Positions 6,202-14,818 of a DNA stretch of 56,181 bases are shown one piece after another. How positions within the stretch are numbered: the stretch's first letter is position 1; the number at the start of each line of letters is the position of its first letter. The notes under the pieces are model-generated. The model worked only from the letters and a program-made list of their open reading frames with translations, ran no database searches and had not been told where the DNA came from. Where the stretch lies: positions 1-56,181 of the forward strand of contig CACWOZ010000018.1 in the NCBI GenBank assembly GCA_902762655.1. The letters are read 5' to 3'. Position numbers and translations under genes: made by a program. Source of the stretch: an uncultured Bacteroidia bacterium. GTDB taxonomy: Bacteria; Bacteroidota; Bacteroidia; Bacteroidales; UBA932.

Positions 6202-7818
6202 CTAGAATAAGCCCGGGGTGATCTGCAGCCATTTCAGCACCGTCTGCCCGAAGAGCAGGATCAGCAGCCAGGAGAAAGTCATCATGGTGATGCCGTAGTT
6301 GAAGGCGTCGGTGAGGCTGTACTGGTTTGTGTTGTAGAGAAGGGCTGCAGGTTTGCTGTTGAACGGCAGCACATAGCAATGCTCAATAAGCATCGATACC
6401 GGCAATGAAAGGCTCATGGGCGGGAAGCCGAAGCGCTTCTCCACACCGAGGGCGATAGGCACGAACACCATGGTGCGGATGGTCTTGCTCTGGAAGACCA
6501 GTCCGGAATACATCATAAGGAAGGTAAGCACCACGTACAGCACCCAGAACGGGGTGTCGGCAGTGATTCCCATGGAATCGAAAGCCGCATTCACCATCGT
6601 GTTCGGCAGGTCGGTAGCGTTGAGGCCGCTCCCCAGCACGTAGGCGCCGGCCGAGAAGATCATCAGATGCCAGGGGATGTCCACGTCGTTCCATTTGACC
6701 ACGCCGATCCCGGGCAGCAGGGCCAGGACCGCGCCAATCAGAGCGACGAGGGTCTCATCTATATTATGGAAGGTCCCCTTCGTCACCCAGAGGATGAGCA
6801 CCACCATAAAGATGCACACGGCCTTCCACTCCTCCTTCGACATCTGTCCCATGGTCGCCAGCTCGTCCTTCAGGCGGTCGATGCCACCCTGGATCTGGGG
6901 CACTTGTTCCTCCTTCTTCATGGGGAAGAACACGTACATGCCCAGCAGCAGGCCGACCACGAGGATGATGATGCTCATAGGGCCTACCGCCACCAGCCAT
7001 TCCTTGTAGCCGAAGTCGCAGGACCCCAGGAAGCCGGCGATGAGAGAGATGGCCAGCAGATGCGCTCCGCTGCCGGTATAGAAAGCGTTCGCACCGATGT
7101 TTACCTGGAAGAGATTCTGGATCACGAGGTTGCGGCCGAAGTTGTTGCGATGTCCGTCAGATGCGCCGTAGATGGCACAGATCACCATGAAGATAGGCAG
7201 CATGATGGTCGCCTTCACGGTAGTGGCGGAGATGAAGGCGGAGAGCACCAGGTTGATCAGCAGGAAACTCCAGAGCACGCCCTTCGCGCTCTTGCCGAAC
7301 TTGATGACGAAGGCCAGCGCGAGACGCTTTGCAAAACGCGTTTTCACCAGCATCGAGGCCAGCACGAAACTGAGGATGTTCAGCCACATGACAGGGTGCC
7401 CGAGTTGCGCGAGAGCCTCCTTCTGGGTAGTAACGCTGAACAGGACCGTCGCCAGGATGAGGATGAGGGAGGTCAGATAGTTGGGAAGGGCTTCCGTAAT
7501 CCAGAGGATCAGGCTCGATACGAAGATGGCGAGCATCGCGTAATTGGCGCGGATGAAGCCGTCGGGGCCCAGGGCGGCAAGGCGCTTCTGCGCCGAAGCC
7601 GCGAGCCCGGCAGTGTCGAGATTATCTATGAATCCTATATGGCAGAACCAGCAGATCCAGACGAAGGCGATGACCGCCAGAGGCCCGCCCAGACGAGCCA
7701 GCCACACCTCGAACTTCCCCTTCTGCATCTTTGGGAGTTTCTCGACCTTGTAGTTGTTCATATCCAGCGGATCGAATTGCTTTTCCGCTGTCGTTCCGGT
7801 AGATGTTGCCATATTCAT
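6202..7818 (-). CDS. DASS/SLC13 family anion permease
   Basis: A 538-residue polytopic protein of the divalent anion:sodium symporter family, which moves dicarboxylates, sulfate, phosphate or tricarboxylates. The SATTVKATIMLPI segment near residue 190 and the QNLFQVNIGANAFYTGSG region match the SNT-like substrate and sodium loops. A second half contains LNATDLPN and SKTIRTMVFVP. The N-terminus begins with about 35 soluble residues. Start MNMATS overlaps the preceding stop in ATGA; an internal ATG two codons later is equally possible. Substrate is unknown; the surrounding genes make phosphate or another oxyanion worth considering. Confidence 0.85.
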   Translation of the reverse strand: MNMATSTGTTAEKQFDPLDMNNYKVEKLPKMQKGKFEVWLARLGGPLAVIAFVWICWFCHIGFIDNLDTAGLAASAQKRLAALGPDGFIRANYAMLAIFVSSLILWITEALPNYLTSLILILATVLFSVTTQKEALAQLGHPVMWLNILSFVLASMLVKTRFAKRLALAFVIKFGKSAKGVLWSFLLINLVLSAFISATTVKATIMLPIFMVICAIYGASDGHRNNFGRNLVIQNLFQVNIGANAFYTGSGAHLLAISLIAGFLGSCDFGYKEWLVAVGPMSIIILVVGLLLGMYVFFPMKKEEQVPQIQGGIDRLKDELATMGQMSKEEWKAVCIFMVVLILWVTKGTFHNIDETLVALIGAVLALLPGIGVVKWNDVDIPWHLMIFSAGAYVLGSGLNATDLPNTMVNAAFDSMGITADTPFWVLYVVLTFLMMYSGLVFQSKTIRTMVFVPIALGVEKRFGFPPMSLSLPVSMLIEHCYVLPFNSKPAALLYNTNQYSLTDAFNYGITMMTFSWLLILLFGQTVLKWLQITPGLF

Positions 7819-8645
7819 TTATAACTGATGCTGTGCAGGTTGCCGGTTTTGTCGCAGCAGAACCAGAACAACTTGCGTTCTTTGTCCAGGCAGAATCCTT
7901 CGGGCTTCTTCACGAAGGAAATGTTGAACTCTGCAATTGTTTCACCGCTCTCGGCGTCGATGTTCGTCAGGCGTTGTTTCTTGCTGTCGGTAATCCACAG
8001 GCTGCCGTCGGATTCTTCGAAGAAAATGTCCGAAAGATACTCGGCGAAACCGATATCCATCGTGGAAACAACTTTCTTTTCTTTGATGGAGTATTTGTAA
8101 ATGCGGGTTGGAGAGGCCTGGTTAGCCACATACAGGAATCCGTTTCCGTAAGTTATTCCTTCGAAGCCCTTGTTGCTCACTCCGCCTTCGACGGAAATCT
8201 TGTCTACGAGAGAGACATCCTTGCGGTCGGTATTCACTTTGTAGATGGCCCATTCCCTTTCTTCGCAAAGGTAGATGGTGCCGTCGTCGGGGTTCACGGT
8301 AACGCCTTCCCAGTCGTGGGAGGATTTGAACGGGACGGTTCCCTTGACCGTCCCGTCAAGTCCTGCCTCATACAATAATCCTCTGTCCTGCGCGATGTAG
8401 AACCCGTCCCTTTTCTCGTTGAGGCATATCGATGACAAGCCCTCCAGACCGGTCGCAGAACTGTTCTCGCCGGAAAGGGTATAATTCTTGTCCGCCGCGA
8501 CCTCGCCTCCGCTTTCGCCGCCTTCGCCGGAAGGTTCATCCGTCACCTCCGGCTCAGGAGTATCCGGCACGAATGCCGGGTCATTGACGCACAGGGCGAA
8601 GGTGGCGATGCAGAGACATAGGATTATCGTCCGTACTACTTTCAC
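7815..8645 (-). CDS. SdiA-regulated-like beta-propeller, exported
   Basis: A 276-residue protein with an N-terminal hydrophobic signal (to about residue 19, with Cys in FALC as a possible but atypical lipobox). A Pro/Glu/Gly linker (25-50) follows, then propeller blades typical of the SdiA-regulated family: LEGLSSICL, HDWEGVTVNPDDGTIYLCEE, GFEGITYG and SDIFFEESDGSLWITDS. This fold is related to that of phytase-like esterases, but no catalytic site can be assigned. It overlaps both neighbours by 4 nt (ATGA), so it is translationally coupled between a CYTH enzyme and an anion permease. Confidence 0.75.
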   Translation of the reverse strand: MKVVRTIILCLCIATFALCVNDPAFVPDTPEPEVTDEPSGEGGESGGEVAADKNYTLSGENSSATGLEGLSSICLNEKRDGFYIAQDRGLLYEAGLDGTVKGTVPFKSSHDWEGVTVNPDDGTIYLCEEREWAIYKVNTDRKDVSLVDKISVEGGVSNKGFEGITYGNGFLYVANQASPTRIYKYSIKEKKVVSTMDIGFAEYLSDIFFEESDGSLWITDSKKQRLTNIDAESGETIAEFNISFVKKPEGFCLDKERKLFWFCCDKTGNLHSISYK

Positions 8646-9118
8646 TTCCAGTTCTTGTAAGGATTCTTCATCAACATGGAATTGAAGTACTTAGGGTCGC
8701 CGGTAACCTCTTCTCCGAGCCATGCGGGCTTGTCGAAGGGCTCGTTCTCGTCGGCAAGTTCCACTTCGGCGACGGTCAGGCCGTCGTTGTCGCCGTAGAA
8801 CTCGTCAACTTCCCAGGTATGAACGCCATCGGTGTTCTTCACCAGGTAGCGGGTCTTGTCGATCACACCGGGCTCGGCAAGGTCCAGAAGGGCCTTCACA
8901 TCCTCGACGGGGATTTCCTTCTCCCACTCGAAACGCGCCGCGCCGGAAGCGTTGCCTATGCCCTTTACGGTGATGAATCCCTTATCGCCCTTCACGCGGA
9001 TGCGGACGGTGCGTTCGGGAACGCTGCTGAGATAGCCCTGGGTGATACGGGTGGCCTTGAAGGCCTCGGCCTTGAAATCACCCTTGACCAAGAATTTCTT
9101 TTCTATTTCCTGTGCCAT
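8642..9118 (-). CDS. CYTH domain protein (triphosphate tunnel metalloenzyme)
   Basis: A 158-residue stand-alone CYTH domain. The diagnostic ExExK is E4-I-E-K-K8 at the N-terminus, and further tunnel residues appear in RTVRIRVKGDKGFITVKG, ARFEWEKEIP, KTRYLV, WEVDEF and VAEVEL. Small bacterial members often hydrolyse inorganic tripolyphosphate or organic triphosphates, and a minority make cAMP. All tunnel motifs seem intact, so it should be active. It lies 3 nt after the next gene upstream, a divergent CYTH-like protein, and overlaps the propeller gene, forming part of the phosphate-flavoured run. Confidence 0.88.
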   Translation of the reverse strand: MAQEIEKKFLVKGDFKAEAFKATRITQGYLSSVPERTVRIRVKGDKGFITVKGIGNASGAARFEWEKEIPVEDVKALLDLAEPGVIDKTRYLVKNTDGVHTWEVDEFYGDNDGLTVAEVELADENEPFDKPAWLGEEVTGDPKYFNSMLMKNPYKNWK

Positions 9119-9121
9119 AGT

Positions 9122-9760
9122 CTATTCGTTTGCTAAAGGTTTGTCGCTCATGCCGATCACTCGCTTGATAGCCTGCAGGTAGTTGATGTTCTCAACACCC
9201 TCGAGACCCACGTCGGCGATGGTCTTCTTGATATCTTCGATTTCGGTGGATTCAGAGTTGATGGTAACCACCTTCGCACCGTTGATGAGCACGTTGCCCA
9301 CCTCGCAGATAGTGTTGTTCACCATGTAGCCGAAGCGCTGCTTGTGCACTCGAACGGCTGCGAGGTCCGGGCAGGCCTTCACCATCGCAATGAATTCCTC
9401 GTAGGTGTAGGTGTCCTTCGTAAGGGCGGGCATCTCTACCATGAAGGCAGGGAATACTTCCTTTTCGAGGACCTCGCGGGAGATAGGGAATTCGCCCTTC
9501 ATGAGGGGGTTCCACTGCTCAAGGCCGTCTACTGTCTGCACATAGGTCTTGATATCCATCTTTCCGTCGCGGATCTTGGTATTGTTGATGTCGTTCTTGG
9601 CCGAGATGATGTAGATCTCGTCGCTGCTGCGTTCCCATACTTTCTCCGGCACGGGGACGGAGAGGCGTGCCATTCTCTTGTGCTGTTCGCAGAAGCACTG
9701 ACCGAAACTGCGGAATTCGAAGCGAGGCTTGCTCTGCTCGCCGATTTTAAGTTCTGCCAT
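9122..9760 (-). CDS. divergent CYTH-like protein
   Basis: 212 residues that I do not recognise as a named family. The layout resembles a degenerate CYTH barrel: EFRSFGQ near the start, then NNTKIRDGKMDIKTYVQT, a GLEQWNPL turn and VRVHKQRFGYMV. It continues with an acidic strand (VVTINSESTEIEDIKKTI) and a closing ENINYLQAIKRVIG. This matches the order KIR, W, KxRY, ExE, NY seen in CYTH proteins, but the N-terminal ExExK is absent. It sits directly before the canonical CYTH gene (3-nt gap), suggesting a paired or hetero-oligomeric partner. A structure prediction would settle the fold. Confidence 0.55.
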   Translation of the reverse strand: MAELKIGEQSKPRFEFRSFGQCFCEQHKRMARLSVPVPEKVWERSSDEIYIISAKNDINNTKIRDGKMDIKTYVQTVDGLEQWNPLMKGEFPISREVLEKEVFPAFMVEMPALTKDTYTYEEFIAMVKACPDLAAVRVHKQRFGYMVNNTICEVGNVLINGAKVVTINSESTEIEDIKKTIADVGLEGVENINYLQAIKRVIGMSDKPLANE

Positions 9761-9773
9761 AATTATCAGAGGT

Positions 9774-11006
9774 TTAAGGTTTTACTGTTCCTGTGTTGTT
9801 GGATGTTCCGATTGTTCCTTCGGAGAAGAGTATCCACTCGTCGGCCCCGTCGGTCTTGCGGCCGAGGGTCTCGGTGTCTGCAACAGTCTTGAATCCTTCG
9901 ACGGACGCGCTGTTGTCGATCATATCCACGAGGGTGGCGTCGGATACTTCGGCGCTGCTGTACATACAGAGTTTGAATCCCTTGGTGCCGCTCAGTCCGA
10001 ATGAAGGTCCTGCGCTGATGTCGGGGTTCTTGGCGGTGAATACCAGGAATCCCTTCGAAGGGATATTGCCCTTGCCCTCAGGTACAACCCAAGCGTCGCC
10101 GTCATCCTTTGTGAATGCATATCCGGCGATATCTACAGCCTTGTTCGTACCGTTGTAAATCTCGAACTGCTTAAGTCCGCAGGAGACTTCGTTGATCACG
10201 ATCTTGCCATTGTCCACAGGCTCCGCTCCATTGGAGAAGCCGATTGTTCCTCCTTCGACAAGAACCCATTCGGCAGCGCCGTCGGTCTTGCGGGAAAGGG
10301 TCCATCCATCTTCCACAGTCTTGAATCCGTCGACGGTGGCGCTGTTGTCGATCATATCGACGAGGTTTGCTTCAGAGACTTCTTCACTCTTGTACATGCA
10401 GAGTTTGAATCCCTTTGTGCCGCTGATGCCGAAAGAAGGACCTTCGTTAGCGTCGGGATTCTTGGCGGTGAACACCAGGAAACCCTTTGCGGGGATGTTC
10501 CCCTTGCCGGCAGGGACGGTCCAGTTGCCTCCATCGTCCTTGGTGAAGGTGTAGCCTGCGATATCAACGGCCTTGTCGGAAGCGTTGTAGATTTCAAACT
10601 TCTTGTTGCCGCAGTCGACTTCGTTGATAAAAAGTGTCTGAGGCTCCGGGGGAGCTGCAGAGAAGGTAATGCTTGCAACGGCAGAAGACGTGGTGCCTCC
10701 GGCCGTGGTGGCCTCTACGTGGTATTTAACTTCGGTTCCATCAGGCTGGGAAGGAATGACACCGGTATATGTGCCGGAGTTCCCGGTCATTTTTACGGTC
10801 TGTTCAGCCGCTCCGCCTGCTGAGTAGAGAAGGTTTACTGCGGCAATATCCACGAGTGCGGAAACATTGGCGGTCACCGTTACGTCACTGCCGACGATTG
10901 CATCGGTTGCCTTGACGCCGGAAATGGAGGCCATGGGGAAGGTTTCATCCTTTATACAGGAAACCAGGGCAAGGCCGGCCAGAACTGCAAATAATATCTT
11001 TTTCAT
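9774..11006 (-). CDS. lipoprotein with two tandem lamin-tail domains
   Basis: A 410-residue surface lipoprotein: signal peptide with lipobox LVSC (Cys17), an immunoglobulin-like N-terminal domain (about 24-118), then two lamin-tail (LTD) repeats at about 123-262 and 269-405. Each repeat starts INEVxCG and contains FEIYN, AVDIAGY, KGNIPxKGFLVFTAKNP, SGTKGFKLCMY, LVDMIDNSA and RKTDGAxEW. The two repeats look about 70-75 percent identical by eye, suggesting duplication. LTDs occur in secreted nucleases and phosphoesterases and probably bind. It lies 14 nt after the porin gene. Confidence 0.85.
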   Translation of the reverse strand: MKKILFAVLAGLALVSCIKDETFPMASISGVKATDAIVGSDVTVTANVSALVDIAAVNLLYSAGGAAEQTVKMTGNSGTYTGVIPSQPDGTEVKYHVEATTAGGTTSSAVASITFSAAPPEPQTLFINEVDCGNKKFEIYNASDKAVDIAGYTFTKDDGGNWTVPAGKGNIPAKGFLVFTAKNPDANEGPSFGISGTKGFKLCMYKSEEVSEANLVDMIDNSATVDGFKTVEDGWTLSRKTDGAAEWVLVEGGTIGFSNGAEPVDNGKIVINEVSCGLKQFEIYNGTNKAVDIAGYAFTKDDGDAWVVPEGKGNIPSKGFLVFTAKNPDISAGPSFGLSGTKGFKLCMYSSAEVSDATLVDMIDNSASVEGFKTVADTETLGRKTDGADEWILFSEGTIGTSNNTGTVKP

Positions 11007-11020
11007 GATTCAGTCCAATT

Positions 11021-12388
11021 TTAGAAGTCAATTTCGAAACGAACACATACCATATGATAATCGACACCGGCCTTTCCGCTGGCTGCGACCACCTTGCTGT
11101 AATCTTTGGTAGGTTTGCCTGCTGAGTCGAGACCGATGTTGAGTTTGTTTTTGCCGTTTGCGTAGCGGTCATTGTTGTTGTACTGGTAGTTAACCACTAA
11201 TTTGACATTGTTGTTAACATGCCAGTTGAGCCCCAGGGTATAAGCCTCGGCAGCGCCGCCGTAAACATTGCCATCATTCAGGTCTACGTTCTCATAACGG
11301 GCGCAGAGTTCGAGGTCTCCCCACTTCTGTCCACGCTCGACCTTGGTGTACTTGCCACCCTTGGAATCGTACTGCTGCTTGCCTCCGAAAAGCAGGTATC
11401 CGGCCTGCACGTACCATCCACCGAAATTCTTGGTGGCGGGGTCGGCAGCATCACTCTTGAAATGAACATTGTCCCCAACATAGGCGGCTTCATAGCGGAG
11501 TCCGTTCCAGTGGCCTGCAAGTTCTACGGTCCAGAGGTTGTTGTGGTCGAATCCGGGGAGATTGTTGGTGTCTACATACTTCTTGCGGTTGATGCTCGTG
11601 GAGTTGCGGCAACTTGCGCGATAGGTGCCCCATTCGCCGGTAGCGAGATCGGTTGTTGTGGTGCGATATGAATAAGCAGCGCCGATATGCAGGCTGGCAT
11701 TATCCATCTTGTAGAGAGGGCGGAAGACAACCTTGGAGGTCAGGGAGTATCCTGAGTTACGGCCGAAATCTTTATTGTTGTCGGCCACATTGGTCCATTC
11801 TTCCTGGCCTGCAATTACTTGTGAGAATGCACCTGCGGAAACCCACAGCCAGTCCTTTGCATACTTGGCATTGAAGCCGAGGTGACGCGAGGGGGTAAGG
11901 GCGGAGCATACCATAGGGCGCTCGATGAATTGAAGGTAGCGCGAAGTGGTGTTGCGCTGGATGGAGAAGTTCTCCTTGAAGTTACCTACCTGCAGGTCGA
12001 GGTTGGGAACGCCGGTGTAGCGGACGATGGCGTCCTTGAGTTCGGCGAGACCGTTTGCAAGATCCATATCGAACTCTCCGTACCAGTCCCTGTTTATCTG
12101 GCCCTTCACTGCGAAACGCGCGCGGCGGATCTGGGTGCCGTTTCCGATTGCGTCGGCATAGTCAGGGGCGCCGAAGAAAACCGCGGCATCAGCTTGGGCG
12201 CGGATATCGAACCAGAGTTTGTACCCGCTCTTGGGAGATTCCATTACCAGGATGCCGTCCTGCGCCTCTACGTCGAGGACGTCGGATTCGACAGCCACGC
12301 CGTACTGATTGTACTTGACTGCTTTCTGCGCATTGGCTGCCGTTACTGCCAGCAGTGCGAGCGCGATTGTAAACAGAATGTTACGCAT
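11021..12388 (-). CDS. OprO/OprP-like phosphate-selective porin
   Basis: A 455-residue outer-membrane barrel with a signal peptide ending AANAQ. It has the OprO/P family plan: GYKLWFDIRAQADAAVFFG strand, IRRARFAVKGQINRDWYGEFD, RYTGVPNLDLQVGNFKENF, then ERPMVCSALTPSRHLGF, and a terminal aromatic strand CVRFEIDF. Members pass phosphate or pyrophosphate. It starts 21 nt after the stop of the PiT-like/HTH gene, with no TAnnTTTG box in the gap, so co-transcription with that putative phosphate regulator is likely. Confidence 0.85.
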   Translation of the reverse strand: MRNILFTIALALLAVTAANAQKAVKYNQYGVAVESDVLDVEAQDGILVMESPKSGYKLWFDIRAQADAAVFFGAPDYADAIGNGTQIRRARFAVKGQINRDWYGEFDMDLANGLAELKDAIVRYTGVPNLDLQVGNFKENFSIQRNTTSRYLQFIERPMVCSALTPSRHLGFNAKYAKDWLWVSAGAFSQVIAGQEEWTNVADNNKDFGRNSGYSLTSKVVFRPLYKMDNASLHIGAAYSYRTTTTDLATGEWGTYRASCRNSTSINRKKYVDTNNLPGFDHNNLWTVELAGHWNGLRYEAAYVGDNVHFKSDAADPATKNFGGWYVQAGYLLFGGKQQYDSKGGKYTKVERGQKWGDLELCARYENVDLNDGNVYGGAAEAYTLGLNWHVNNNVKLVVNYQYNNNDRYANGKNKLNIGLDSAGKPTKDYSKVVAASGKAGVDYHMVCVRFEIDF

Positions 12389-12409: not shown

Positions 12410-14008
12410 TTAAATAGTTTTAATGAATTGTATCAGATTTTCGCTCCTCGTAAGGCCAAGTTTGGACCTAAGCCTGGAGCGGTTTATTTCTACACTCTTC
12501 GGGGTTATGTTCATCAGCGACGCGATGTATTTGCTGCTGAAACCCTGCCTCAGCAGGTTGGTAAGTTTGCGCTCGCCATCCGTAAGGCCCGGAAAACGTT
12601 CGGCAAGCCTCATGTTGAAGTCTTTATTCAGCACTTCGCTGCGCGCATAGAAGTCGTTCATTTCCCTCGTAAAATACATACGCTCGCGCAGAGTGTTCAG
12701 CAGGGCGTCCGTCGCGGCGTTCTTCTCACCTCCGTTTTCCATCGTCCTTATCTCCCTCAAATCTTCGTATACCTTTTCCATGAACTCTTTCTGCTCGCTT
12801 ACACCCACTGCAAAGTCCACCAGTTCCTTGCGTTTGATATCCAACTTGTTAAGCAGGTCCCTTTCCGTCATTTCCGCCTTCACTTCCAGAGCGGAGAGCG
12901 ATTTCTGCGTGCTATAGATCTGCTGTTCGCGATTGGCTACAATCTGCCTGTGCATCGTACGGCGGTTCTGCCAGCGCGAGTATATCATCATGGCCGCAGC
13001 CATCAGGGCCATGCCGAGCACGATGAGTGTCCCTGCGCTGCCGCCGTCCATAATCTTGCCGAGGCAGTAGGCGAACATCAGCGCCAGCACGGGAGAAAGC
13101 AGCATGGCGATCCCTCCCTTGAGCACTTCTGCACCATCCACAAGAGCCCTCTGGCGCACGATGCTGATGCCCAGAAGGGCTGCCAGATACAGGGAGCCTG
13201 CCGGCAGCGGAGTGGCGGTAAGGCCCAGCAAGCCCGGCAGCGGACAGCTGAAGAGGATGAAGGTCGCCGCCATCGCCAGCAACAGGCTGAGGATAGATTG
13301 GGTGTTAGTGTCAAGTTCGTTGTCAGCGAGATTCCACTTCGCCTGCGTGACGTGTTTGTGGGCGAATAGCCAGATCGGTATCGCGCAGGCGGGCGCGGTG
13401 ATGGCTGCGAATACCGCCCCTTCGGAGAGGGGTATCCATGTAAAAATCAGCGAGTTGTTGATTGCGAAAGATGCGATCAGGAGCAAGCCGGAAAAGGCAG
13501 CAAGCGGCATCATCCGGGCCTCTTGTACCGCCAGATGGACTTTCTTCCCGCGCTGTCCAAATGCAAACAACAGGTAGATGACCGCCGCGAGGCAGGCGCA
13601 GATGGCGGGTGCCACCAGCCAGGACAAGGCAAAAGAAATACCTGTATGCGGATTTAAACCCGTGCCGGAAGCAAGTCCGGTTCCCACGATAGCCGCCACA
13701 AATGCAAAAGGCACAGCCGGATAGTGGCTGAATCTGCCGACTATCAGGGCGGCGGATACGGTCGCAATCCCGATGGGGAGTATGTTTCCCGGCTCGGGCA
13801 GCACGTTTGCCACGGGTAACAGGACTGTGGGGAGAAAGCAGGGGACGACGAGGCCTGCAAGGAGGATAATGGGGGTGAGAATCCGCACACAAGTCCTCTC
13901 TCCGGCGCCGGATGCCAGCACGCTTCCGCCGATGACGGGGAGATCGTGGGTGACCAGCAGAATGCCGGCAAGCAAAGAGGAGATGATTATGTACAGGATT
14001 CCTTCCAT
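12410..14008 (-). CDS. PiT-like transmembrane domain fused to LuxR-type HTH regulator
   Basis: A 532-residue chimera. Residues 1 to about 345 form ten or so membrane helices whose order fits the PiT/PHO4 phosphate permease fold: HDLPVIGGSVLASG where PiT has the ND...AN motif, a TPIILLAG helix, and PAVPFAFVAAIVGTGLASG where PiT has PvSTTHalvGaivGxGL. The catalytic Asn and STTH residues are changed. Residues 350-440 are a charged coiled coil, and 470-530 a LuxR/GerE helix-turn-helix (LTDGERKLTNLL, SSKYIASLMNITPKSVEINR). It directly abuts a DUF47 gene, the usual PiT partner, and is followed by a phosphate porin. Inference: a membrane-bound phosphate-sensing transcription factor. Confidence 0.7.
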   Translation of the reverse strand: MEGILYIIISSLLAGILLVTHDLPVIGGSVLASGAGERTCVRILTPIILLAGLVVPCFLPTVLLPVANVLPEPGNILPIGIATVSAALIVGRFSHYPAVPFAFVAAIVGTGLASGTGLNPHTGISFALSWLVAPAICACLAAVIYLLFAFGQRGKKVHLAVQEARMMPLAAFSGLLLIASFAINNSLIFTWIPLSEGAVFAAITAPACAIPIWLFAHKHVTQAKWNLADNELDTNTQSILSLLLAMAATFILFSCPLPGLLGLTATPLPAGSLYLAALLGISIVRQRALVDGAEVLKGGIAMLLSPVLALMFAYCLGKIMDGGSAGTLIVLGMALMAAAMMIYSRWQNRRTMHRQIVANREQQIYSTQKSLSALEVKAEMTERDLLNKLDIKRKELVDFAVGVSEQKEFMEKVYEDLREIRTMENGGEKNAATDALLNTLRERMYFTREMNDFYARSEVLNKDFNMRLAERFPGLTDGERKLTNLLRQGFSSKYIASLMNITPKSVEINRSRLRSKLGLTRSENLIQFIKTI

Positions 14009-14671
14009 CTACAGGGATCGTTTGATGGCCATGACAGACAACTGCTCAGCAACCTTTACTGCAGCCTTCGCCAGATCTTCTATATGGAGGGCGAAGTAGC
14101 GGAGGTGGAACTTTTCGCTGAGTTTCAGATTGTCCATCTGATGAAAGACCGTCCTCTTGATCGACTGGCTCAGCTTGACAGCCTCTTTCTCATAGAAGTA
14201 TACCTGCGCCGTGGTGGCTGCAACCGAGTGTGGTTCGGTGAAATAGGCTTTGGTTCCGGGGATTGAGCTCTCTACCGCGAGAGATGCAAGTTCGCTGAGT
14301 TTCAGGAACTCCCTCTTGAGTTCGGCGGGGATGTTCGGGGCCTCGATCTCGAACTGCACTAGGTCTACGCTGATGATGGAGATGATGTGGTCGAAGCGTT
14401 CAAGCAGGCGCATGATATCGCCGCGGGAGCGCATCAGGTATCCTCTGGAGTATAGTGTGCCTTCAATTTCCCGGATGCGCGTTCCGGCATCGGTTTCCAG
14501 CGCTGCGATTCTGGCAAGATTTTCCGTAAACCCGGTTTCGTTGCCATATAGATAATCCTTTACGCCGTCCTTGAATACCAGCAGAGCCCCGTCGATGGTG
14601 GCAAGCAGCGCATCGATGCTCTCTACCAGGCGGGCAGCCTTTTTCCTTGAGAATATATCGGAGAATCCCAT
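14009..14671 (-). CDS. DUF47/PhoU-like phosphate regulatory protein
   Basis: A 220-residue all-helical protein of the DUF47 (TIGR00153) family, starting MGFSDIFSRKKAARLVE. It shows the PhoU-like three-helix pattern, with DIMRLLERFDHIISIIS in the middle and SIKRTVFHQMDNLKLSEKF towards the end. DUF47 proteins are normally encoded beside PiT transporters and modulate them. Here the partner begins at the next base (0-nt spacing) and is the PiT-like/HTH fusion. As first gene of the run it should lie behind the promoter; the best box in the 75-nt leader is an imperfect TCTATTTG at 14712-14719 (minus strand). Confidence 0.85.
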   Translation of the reverse strand: MGFSDIFSRKKAARLVESIDALLATIDGALLVFKDGVKDYLYGNETGFTENLARIAALETDAGTRIREIEGTLYSRGYLMRSRGDIMRLLERFDHIISIISVDLVQFEIEAPNIPAELKREFLKLSELASLAVESSIPGTKAYFTEPHSVAATTAQVYFYEKEAVKLSQSIKRTVFHQMDNLKLSEKFHLRYFALHIEDLAKAAVKVAEQLSVMAIKRSL

Positions 14672-14746
14672 ATTCGGTCTCGTTTACGTGTTATTAGTCG
14701 TAAATATAAGCCAAATAGAGTTATTTTCAAAACAATGTAGAGATGC

Positions 14747-14774
14747 AAAAAGGCCTGCAACCGCACTGCAGGCC
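14747..14774 (-). terminator. intrinsic terminator of ychF
   Basis: Perfect 8-bp stem GGCCTGCA (14752-14759) with TGCAGGCC (14767-14774) and a 7-nt loop. Read on the minus strand it is followed by five T residues (14751-14747). It lies 45 nt after the ychF stop and insulates ychF from the downstream DUF47 cluster. Confidence 0.8.
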
Positions 14775-14818
14775 CTTCTATAGAGGTTGGTGTAGAGTTA
14801 TTGTAGAGATTTAAATTG

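Follow-up and report, generated by a model that had tools for sequence, protein, structure and literature searches.

What does a bacterial protein do when its membrane part looks like a PiT phosphate permease and its C-terminus like a LuxR-type transcription factor? The question is raised by a 532-aa protein encoded in a 56,181-nt stretch of DNA from an uncultured Bacteroidia bacterium (the window; the genome containing it, G000, comprises 2.18 Mb). The initial annotation read the protein as a PiT permease converted into a LuxR-type factor. Our analysis makes it probable that it is a transporter-derived, membrane-bound one-component regulator of its own phosphate-related operon, acting via CTCTACA sites.

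A PiT fold joined to a LuxR domain

The open reading frames agree with the annotated 532-aa protein, with DUF47 at 0 nt and a porin gene 21 nt downstream (Table 1). About ten membrane helices, a coiled coil, and a LuxR-type HTH had been described, and we find ten helices of at least 15 residues and three short ones, followed by a long helix from residue 324; GerE passes its Pfam cut-off at residues 475-527 (28.7 vs 23.5 bits), and this part has the LuxR fold. One chain thereby holds a transporter-fold domain and a signalling output; the output is GerE, and neither the Pfam nor the NCBIfam matches of the protein include a kinase family. A structure search, which could have gone against the annotation, places the membrane part in the PiT fold (residues 1-324 on TmPiT, 6L85). 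The PHO4 profile (PF01384) gives no match to the protein up to E 10 and 0 matches in the genome.

Table 1. Genes, domains, and candidate regulatory elements in the window
Feature	Position	Strand	Basis
Phytase-like/SdiA-regulated-type protein; ends the run together with the CYTH gene	7815-8645	-	
CYTH-domain protein, after the 212-aa gene	8642..9118	-	PF01928, E 4.2e-15
212-aa protein, no assigned family, strongly conserved, after the LTD gene	9122..9760	-	Conserved gene order
Lamin-tail-domain (LTD) protein, after the porin	9774..11006	-	ORF and Pfam
Porin_O_P outer-membrane porin	11021..12388	-	ORF and Pfam, E 1.1e-43
532-aa protein: PiT-derived membrane part, then coiled coil and C-terminal LuxR/GerE HTH	12410..14008	-	ORF, Pfam GerE, PiT fold, intact PiT-HTH relatives
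LuxR/GerE DNA-binding domain, residues 470-532	12413..12601	-	Pfam and fold
Coiled coil, about residues 346-468	12605..12973	-	By eye and model; prolongs the helix starting at 324
Membrane domain, residues 1-345, PiT fold	12974..14008	-	Structure search (residues 1-324 on 6L85)
DUF47/PhoU_div protein, 220 aa, gene 1 of the run	14009..14671	-	ORF and Pfam
Promoter-like pair TTTG-N19-TATATTTA	14701..14731	-	Bacteroidota-type consensus
Partial copy CTCTA, within the promoter-like spacer	14716..14720	-	
CTCTACA copy 3, immediately upstream of the promoter-like pair	14736..14742	-	
GC-rich hairpin with T run, GGCCTGCAG...TGCAGGCCTTTTT, between CTCTACA copies	14746-14775	-	
Partial copy CTCTA	14781..14785	-	
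CTCTACA copy 2, 11 bp from copy 1	14791..14797	-	
CTCTACA copy 1 (distal), candidate operator	14802..14808	-	
NptA-like Na/Pi cotransporter with PhoU domain matches, 580 aa	22163-23905	-	

The coil-HTH part is related to modules of other Bacteroidota membrane regulators, with matches at E 2.7e-16 and weaker. A plasmid search returned six records and a phage search three, none covering 80% of the query; all phage matches, and the plasmid matches among those listed, fall in the coil-HTH part, and two of the plasmid matches are annotated with a triple tyrosine motif or a tetratricopeptide repeat. The window protein thus shares a related output with the coiled-coil/LuxR one-component regulators of Bacteroidota (TPR or triple-tyrosine/beta-propeller), but the three others examined have, by eye, propeller-like or TPR-like input parts and no polytopic transporter fold.

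The annotation also held that the transport residues were lost, which is true of both serine motifs and most signature residues but not of two positions. Intact PiT-HTH fusions carry the motifs GANDAAN, PVST[GS]Q, GANNIAN, and PVSS[TS]Q with few exceptions; the window protein has THDLPVIGG and AINNSLIF, and no GANDVANA-type signature with both Asp. We aligned 48 of 56 degenerate proteins, leaving out eight near-copies. The D22 position is acidic in 48/48 (27 D, 21 E), and N184, the first N of GANN in the second-half signature, is likewise invariant (48/48). Neither serine motif survives, nor does the remainder of the two signatures; window-type proteins have thus also lost the first-half AN and the acidic site of the second half. 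When residues 1-345 of this degenerate-only alignment, Met1 included, are ordered by relative entropy, N184 comes third and D22 fourteenth; only two columns, 22 and 233, are acidic throughout. The lost serine motifs presumably correspond to S113 and S593 of human PiT2. A study of that protein reports D28, S113, D506, and S593 as critical for transport, with D28 and D506 falling in the two signatures, one each (PMC3126765). The change of the second-half signature Asp to Asn (GANN) was considered as a mark of the fusion and rejected, because stand-alone DUF47-linked PiTs have GANN too.

Twelve degenerate pairs give dN/dS values of 0.05-0.25 for the membrane part, and two intact pairs give 0.03-0.04; for the coil-HTH the range is 0.01-0.09 in the 12/14 pairs for which it was computable, with dS close to saturation in a few pairs. 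The degenerate membrane part is therefore constrained, though less so than the intact one.

Gene order, distribution, and history

From 14671 to 8642 on the minus strand, the run reads DUF47, 532-aa protein, Porin_O_P, LTD, 212-aa protein, CYTH. The DUF47 gene passes the PhoU_div (PF01865) cut-off (29.4 vs 24.4 bits) beside its PiT-type neighbor, and the porin matches Porin_O_P (E 1.1e-43). Adjacency of DUF47 was another point on which the proposal could have failed; it is conserved, with DUF47 directly upstream, a gap limit applied, in 55/56 degenerate and 64/65 intact PiT-HTH loci. The exceptions are L145, where choosing a long start makes the two genes overlap by 65 nt, and L221, with a 714-nt gap. 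The porin follows in 56/56 degenerate loci, 57/59 testable intact PiT-HTH loci, 11/12 PiT-plus-tail loci, and 2/34 stand-alone PiT loci, and the LTD gene is next in 50 of the 53 degenerate loci with room for it. Among degenerate, intact PiT-HTH, and stand-alone PiT loci with enough flank, the 212-aa gene is present in 51/51, 38/40, and 1/23, and the CYTH gene in 49/49, 28/38, and 1/23, respectively; L065 and L067, stand-alone PiT loci with little flank, have both.

The CYTH family takes in tripolyphosphatases, and the nearest solved structures of the CYTH protein are 3typ and 2fbl. Together with the phytase-like/SdiA-regulated-type gene, it lends the run a flavor of polyphosphate or phosphate release. 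The 212-aa protein matches no Pfam family at E 0.01 (best E 0.049) and no NCBIfam family at E 1, and it is conserved far better than the neighboring regulator: identity is 92-98% across most degenerate loci and near 80% in Lutibacter. Its PDB match to designed PPR proteins, at E 1.1e-7 over the full sequence but with no single stretch passing, is probably not meaningful, and kinship with CYTH was rejected (hhalign probability 0.3%).

A family search matched 51/149 genomes at 1e-5, many over the coil-HTH only, and 12 loci fetched from these had DUF47 and the porin in 12/12. Two of the proteins, L040 and L041, combine an intact PiT (PHO4 E 2.9e-54 and 3.8e-55) with this coil and HTH, and both match GerE; L037 and L038 are above the PHO4 cut-off and L036 and L039 below it, while L034 has a sub-cut-off match only in a six-frame search and L035 has none. 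A wider family search matched 75/398 genomes at 1e-30, from which 55 further regions, mainly long matches, were fetched. With intact L040 as query at 1e-30, its own genome counted, 27/295 genomes of the order and 13/395 of the phylum matched. The 12 other phylum matches (L252-L263) are PiT plus a tail with no HTH by blast, and GerE is absent from the two scanned. Among the best 80 loci of a collection scan, full-length intact PiT-HTH proteins occur in strains of Lutibacter maritimus, Lutibacter litoralis, and Mariniflexile maritimum and also in Petrimonas, Lentimicrobium, Melioribacteraceae, and Saprospiraceae genomes; three of these proteins were checked with Pfam. The PiT-LuxR fusion itself is wider than the conversion that had been proposed, with intact versions in many Bacteroidota families.

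The tree and gene-order counts cover 174 loci with 163 different DUF47 sequences, some loci coming from two collections. They exclude loci that are fragmentary or gapped (L046, L060, L066, L146, L165, L168, L171), one duplicate (L068), loci whose DUF47 is short or missing (L180, L184, L213, L220, L250), and separate PHO4 loci (L071-L079). In the DUF47 tree, all 59 degenerate, shortened, and DUF47-HTH loci form one clade (SH-aLRT 99), which sits beside intact PiT-HTH clades, the root not being inferred. When 393 genomes of the order were searched with the mixed profile A3, 25 matches of full or nearly full length came from families other than that of the window. All 25 retain the second signature along with its serine motif, and 23/25 the first signature, L316 being without its start and L319 changed. 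Because the degenerate form occurs only in the window's family in the samples searched, loss is the simple reading. In L319 (G1103), a PiT-HTH-type protein of another family, the first signature is changed and the second kept; the same loss may have begun there independently.

Further reduction is seen in some relatives. The proteins of L169 and L170 have only 414 and 439 aa, and the membrane part can be lost altogether: at L042 (6219-7202), a long branch of unsure place in the tree, DUF47 runs in frame into the coil-HTH end, with an N-run inside DUF47 away from the fusion junction and the porin 10 nt after. At L168, cut by a contig end, a DUF47-like C-terminal end is followed by about two membrane helices and an HTH (by eye). 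L146 (G588) was rejected as a DUF47-PiT-HTH fusion, its N-run lying exactly at the junction. Nearly all full-length matches have open frames, a relative in G574 having an internal TAG. L046, from a draft genome, is a full-length PiT-HTH frame with one TAA inside and with DUF47 and the porin in place.

A PHO4 match is missing in 4 of 13 genomes (G000, G129, G108, and G097). All four have a Na/Pi cotransporter, the one in the window being the only one found in G000. None of these four, out of six genomes searched, matches PhoB (TIGR02154) at 1e-40; G029 and G111 do, below the family cut-off, which was passed by 0/6 genomes searched and only 2/14 controls. The genomes are drafts of 92-98% completeness, so absence of genes is not proof. 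PstB was above cut-off only in G029 of the 13 genomes, in a search with many cross-matches. PiT relatives take in sulfate permeases, and the match is far below the cut-off of the sulfate permease model.

CTCTACA repeats upstream of DUF47

Alignments of the DNA upstream of DUF47 contain a repeated CTCTACA. We counted it in 168 of the 174 loci, dropping L131, L160, L161, L207, L225, and L248 with short or gapped upstream DNA. The 53 degenerate loci have 113 forward and 7 reverse copies against 1.0 expected from shuffles, with at least one copy in 48/53 and at least two in 42/53; the 63 intact PiT-HTH loci have 47 forward and 3 reverse against 1.2 expected, in 30 positive loci. In 37 stand-alone PiT loci there are three copies in two loci (L216 and L224), both cut by contig ends and each grouping by HTH-bearing loci in the tree. 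There is none upstream of DUF47 in the 12 PiT-plus-tail loci, and none on the forward strand in the two shortened forms and the DUF47-HTH fusion. Within 250 nt upstream, 41/119 HTH loci have no copy, including 5/53 degenerate ones. The commonest distance between successive CTCTA is 11 bp (29 cases).

Placement is what sets the repeats apart. The tandem pattern CTCTACANNNNCTCTA has 13 matches over 20 genomes, 11 of them upstream of DUF47, one per genome and thus in only 11 of the 20; the other two (G000:C20 and G114:C36) lie inside long reading frames. The reversed control pattern has 17 matches over the same genomes, so the raw tandem count is unremarkable and the placement is special. A CTCTACA copy stands immediately upstream of the promoter-like pair in 17/53 degenerate loci (0 in 200 shuffles) and in 0/63 intact PiT-HTH loci; in calling the pair promoter-like, we assume the Bacteroidota promoter consensus. 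In the upstream alignment, groups A and C contain sequences like the hairpin of Table 1, which could be either the terminator of the preceding gene or part of the operator.

HTH presence and the motif were compared after further dropping L216, L224, and L234, which are cut by contig ends. Both are clustered on the tree, and an independent-pairs test found two pairs on supported branches and has no power. With only two independent pairs, the HTH-motif association may reflect descent, as related loci share motifs. Over the window as a whole, CTCTACA occurs 14 times where shuffles predict 3.8. Of these copies, 11 lie beyond the promoter (14700-14810), so that the heptamer is at about three times its shuffle expectation even there. 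A regulon with the Na/Pi cotransporter of the window was rejected: one copy lies about 50 nt upstream of it, but the 12 stretches of 801 nt taken at the starts of other Na/Pi cotransporters, nine of them with the start located, contain none. An 8-kb pst stretch of G029 is also free of CTCTACA.

A proposed mechanism and its alternatives

The observed fold, fusion, gene order, one-clade degeneration, and repeat conservation can be joined as follows. A DUF47-PiT permease pair would have gained, by fusion, the coiled-coil/LuxR module of other Bacteroidota membrane regulators, and in the window clade the PiT part would then have shed most transport residues and become a receptor or scaffold. The regulator would remain embedded in the membrane with its LuxR domains bound to DNA, on the CTCTACA repeats upstream of DUF47 and beside the promoter; the conservation of these repeats suggests that they are its DNA target and that it is autoregulatory. 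The controlled operon would comprise the six genes from DUF47 to CYTH. Direct DNA contact, loss of transport, and co-transcription of the run are likewise inferred. The signal would most likely be inorganic phosphate supply or flux, perceived via the remaining PiT site and/or DUF47. DUF47 may sense or gate, because L042 fuses it to the HTH without a membrane part. Our guess for the direction is activation, from the site adjoining the promoter-like pair. A broader picture is tentative, with the balance slightly against it: a kinase-free route of phosphate signalling in Bacteroidota, in which PiT permease, DUF47 gate, and transcription factor merged. A working PiT-LuxR transceptor with DUF47 would have given rise to a pure receptor-regulator, which in some genomes takes the place of both PiT transport and control by PhoB, and this in turn to DUF47-LuxR without a membrane part.

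Where sensing takes place is the point on which the main alternative differs. PhoU-like proteins gate their partners, and DUF47 could be the real sensor, with the membrane part an anchor or scaffold keeping LuxR at the membrane until DUF47 releases it. This is a serious reading, though we doubt it more than we credit it. The in-frame fusion of L042, the arrangement at L168, the shortened L169 and L170, and a membrane part evolving faster than the coil-HTH speak for it, but that part is under purifying selection in 12/12 degenerate pairs, D/E22 and N184 are kept in 48/48, and the form wholly without it is a single locus. It is unlikely that the 532-aa protein still transports phosphate or another anion as a working transceptor with LuxR as a side function. 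Intact relatives do retain the first GANDAAN signature and the serine motifs, the acidic residue at D22 is retained, and the four genomes without any PHO4 match include that of the window; against this, window-type proteins have lost the serine motifs, the first-half AN, and the second-half acidic site, the four residues of human PiT2 named above are critical for transport (PMC3126765), and the window genome has a Na/Pi cotransporter.

The repeats, equally, might belong to another regulator, with LuxR acting elsewhere, although we give this reading little weight, no more than continued transport. Pho boxes are 11-bp direct repeats, and 7-bp repeats with 4-bp spacers resemble their layout, so that a PhoB-type protein on a Pho box is one candidate; the excess of CTCTACA elsewhere in the window points the same way. 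However, 11 of the 13 tandem matches in 20 genomes are at this locus, the motif tracks the HTH and is missing from the 12 Na/Pi cotransporter stretches and the G029 pst stretch, and four degenerate-type genomes gave no PhoB-like match at 1e-40. That the gene is non-functional and its membrane part a decaying relic is very improbable: its faster evolution, the stepwise shortening in relatives, and the TAG in G574 would fit, but open frames in nearly all full-length matches, dN/dS well below 1, invariant residues, and conserved gene order and promoter repeats argue otherwise.

The preferred reading, a membrane-bound regulator derived from a transporter, has partial counterparts. Like PiT/PHO4/SLC20 permeases (TmPiT, human PiT2), the window protein adopts their fold in residues 1-324, stays acidic where the first signature has Asp, and keeps an Asn of the second signature; unlike them, it gives no PHO4 profile match, has shed the two serine motifs along with most signature residues, and adds a C-terminal coiled coil and LuxR domain. 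The Pst-PhoU-PhoR-PhoB scheme also links a transporter and a PhoU-like protein to a transcription factor that acts on phosphate genes, but the window system is without a kinase, carries transporter fold and DNA-binding domain in one chain, and has a LuxR rather than an OmpR-type HTH. CbrA (SLC5-STAC-kinase) and Ks-Amt5 (Amt-kinase) likewise fuse a transporter fold to a signalling output, although from other transporter families and with a kinase and response regulator where the window protein has a DNA-binding domain; the output of both runs through kinases, and a section heading has Ks-Amt5 binding its ion with no translocation. A 2024 paper presents the S-component fold as the first prokaryotic transceptor under a strict definition. 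Transporters turned receptors are rare, and the bacterial fusions in the literature examined use kinases. If our reading is true, a secondary-transporter fold attached directly to a DNA-binding domain would be the shortest such route, with ligand site, membrane, and promoter in one molecule. The annotation's author knew of no description of such a protein, and the literature searched, with most subscription journals outside it, likewise yielded none of a PiT-LuxR fusion. The architecture is probably already in protein databases, unremarked, since sequenced strains carry it. Because intact permease, putative receptor, and DUF47-LuxR fusion form a series with a defined candidate operator, and strains of Lutibacter and Mariniflexile carry intact forms, these loci would be a test bed for the role of DUF47.
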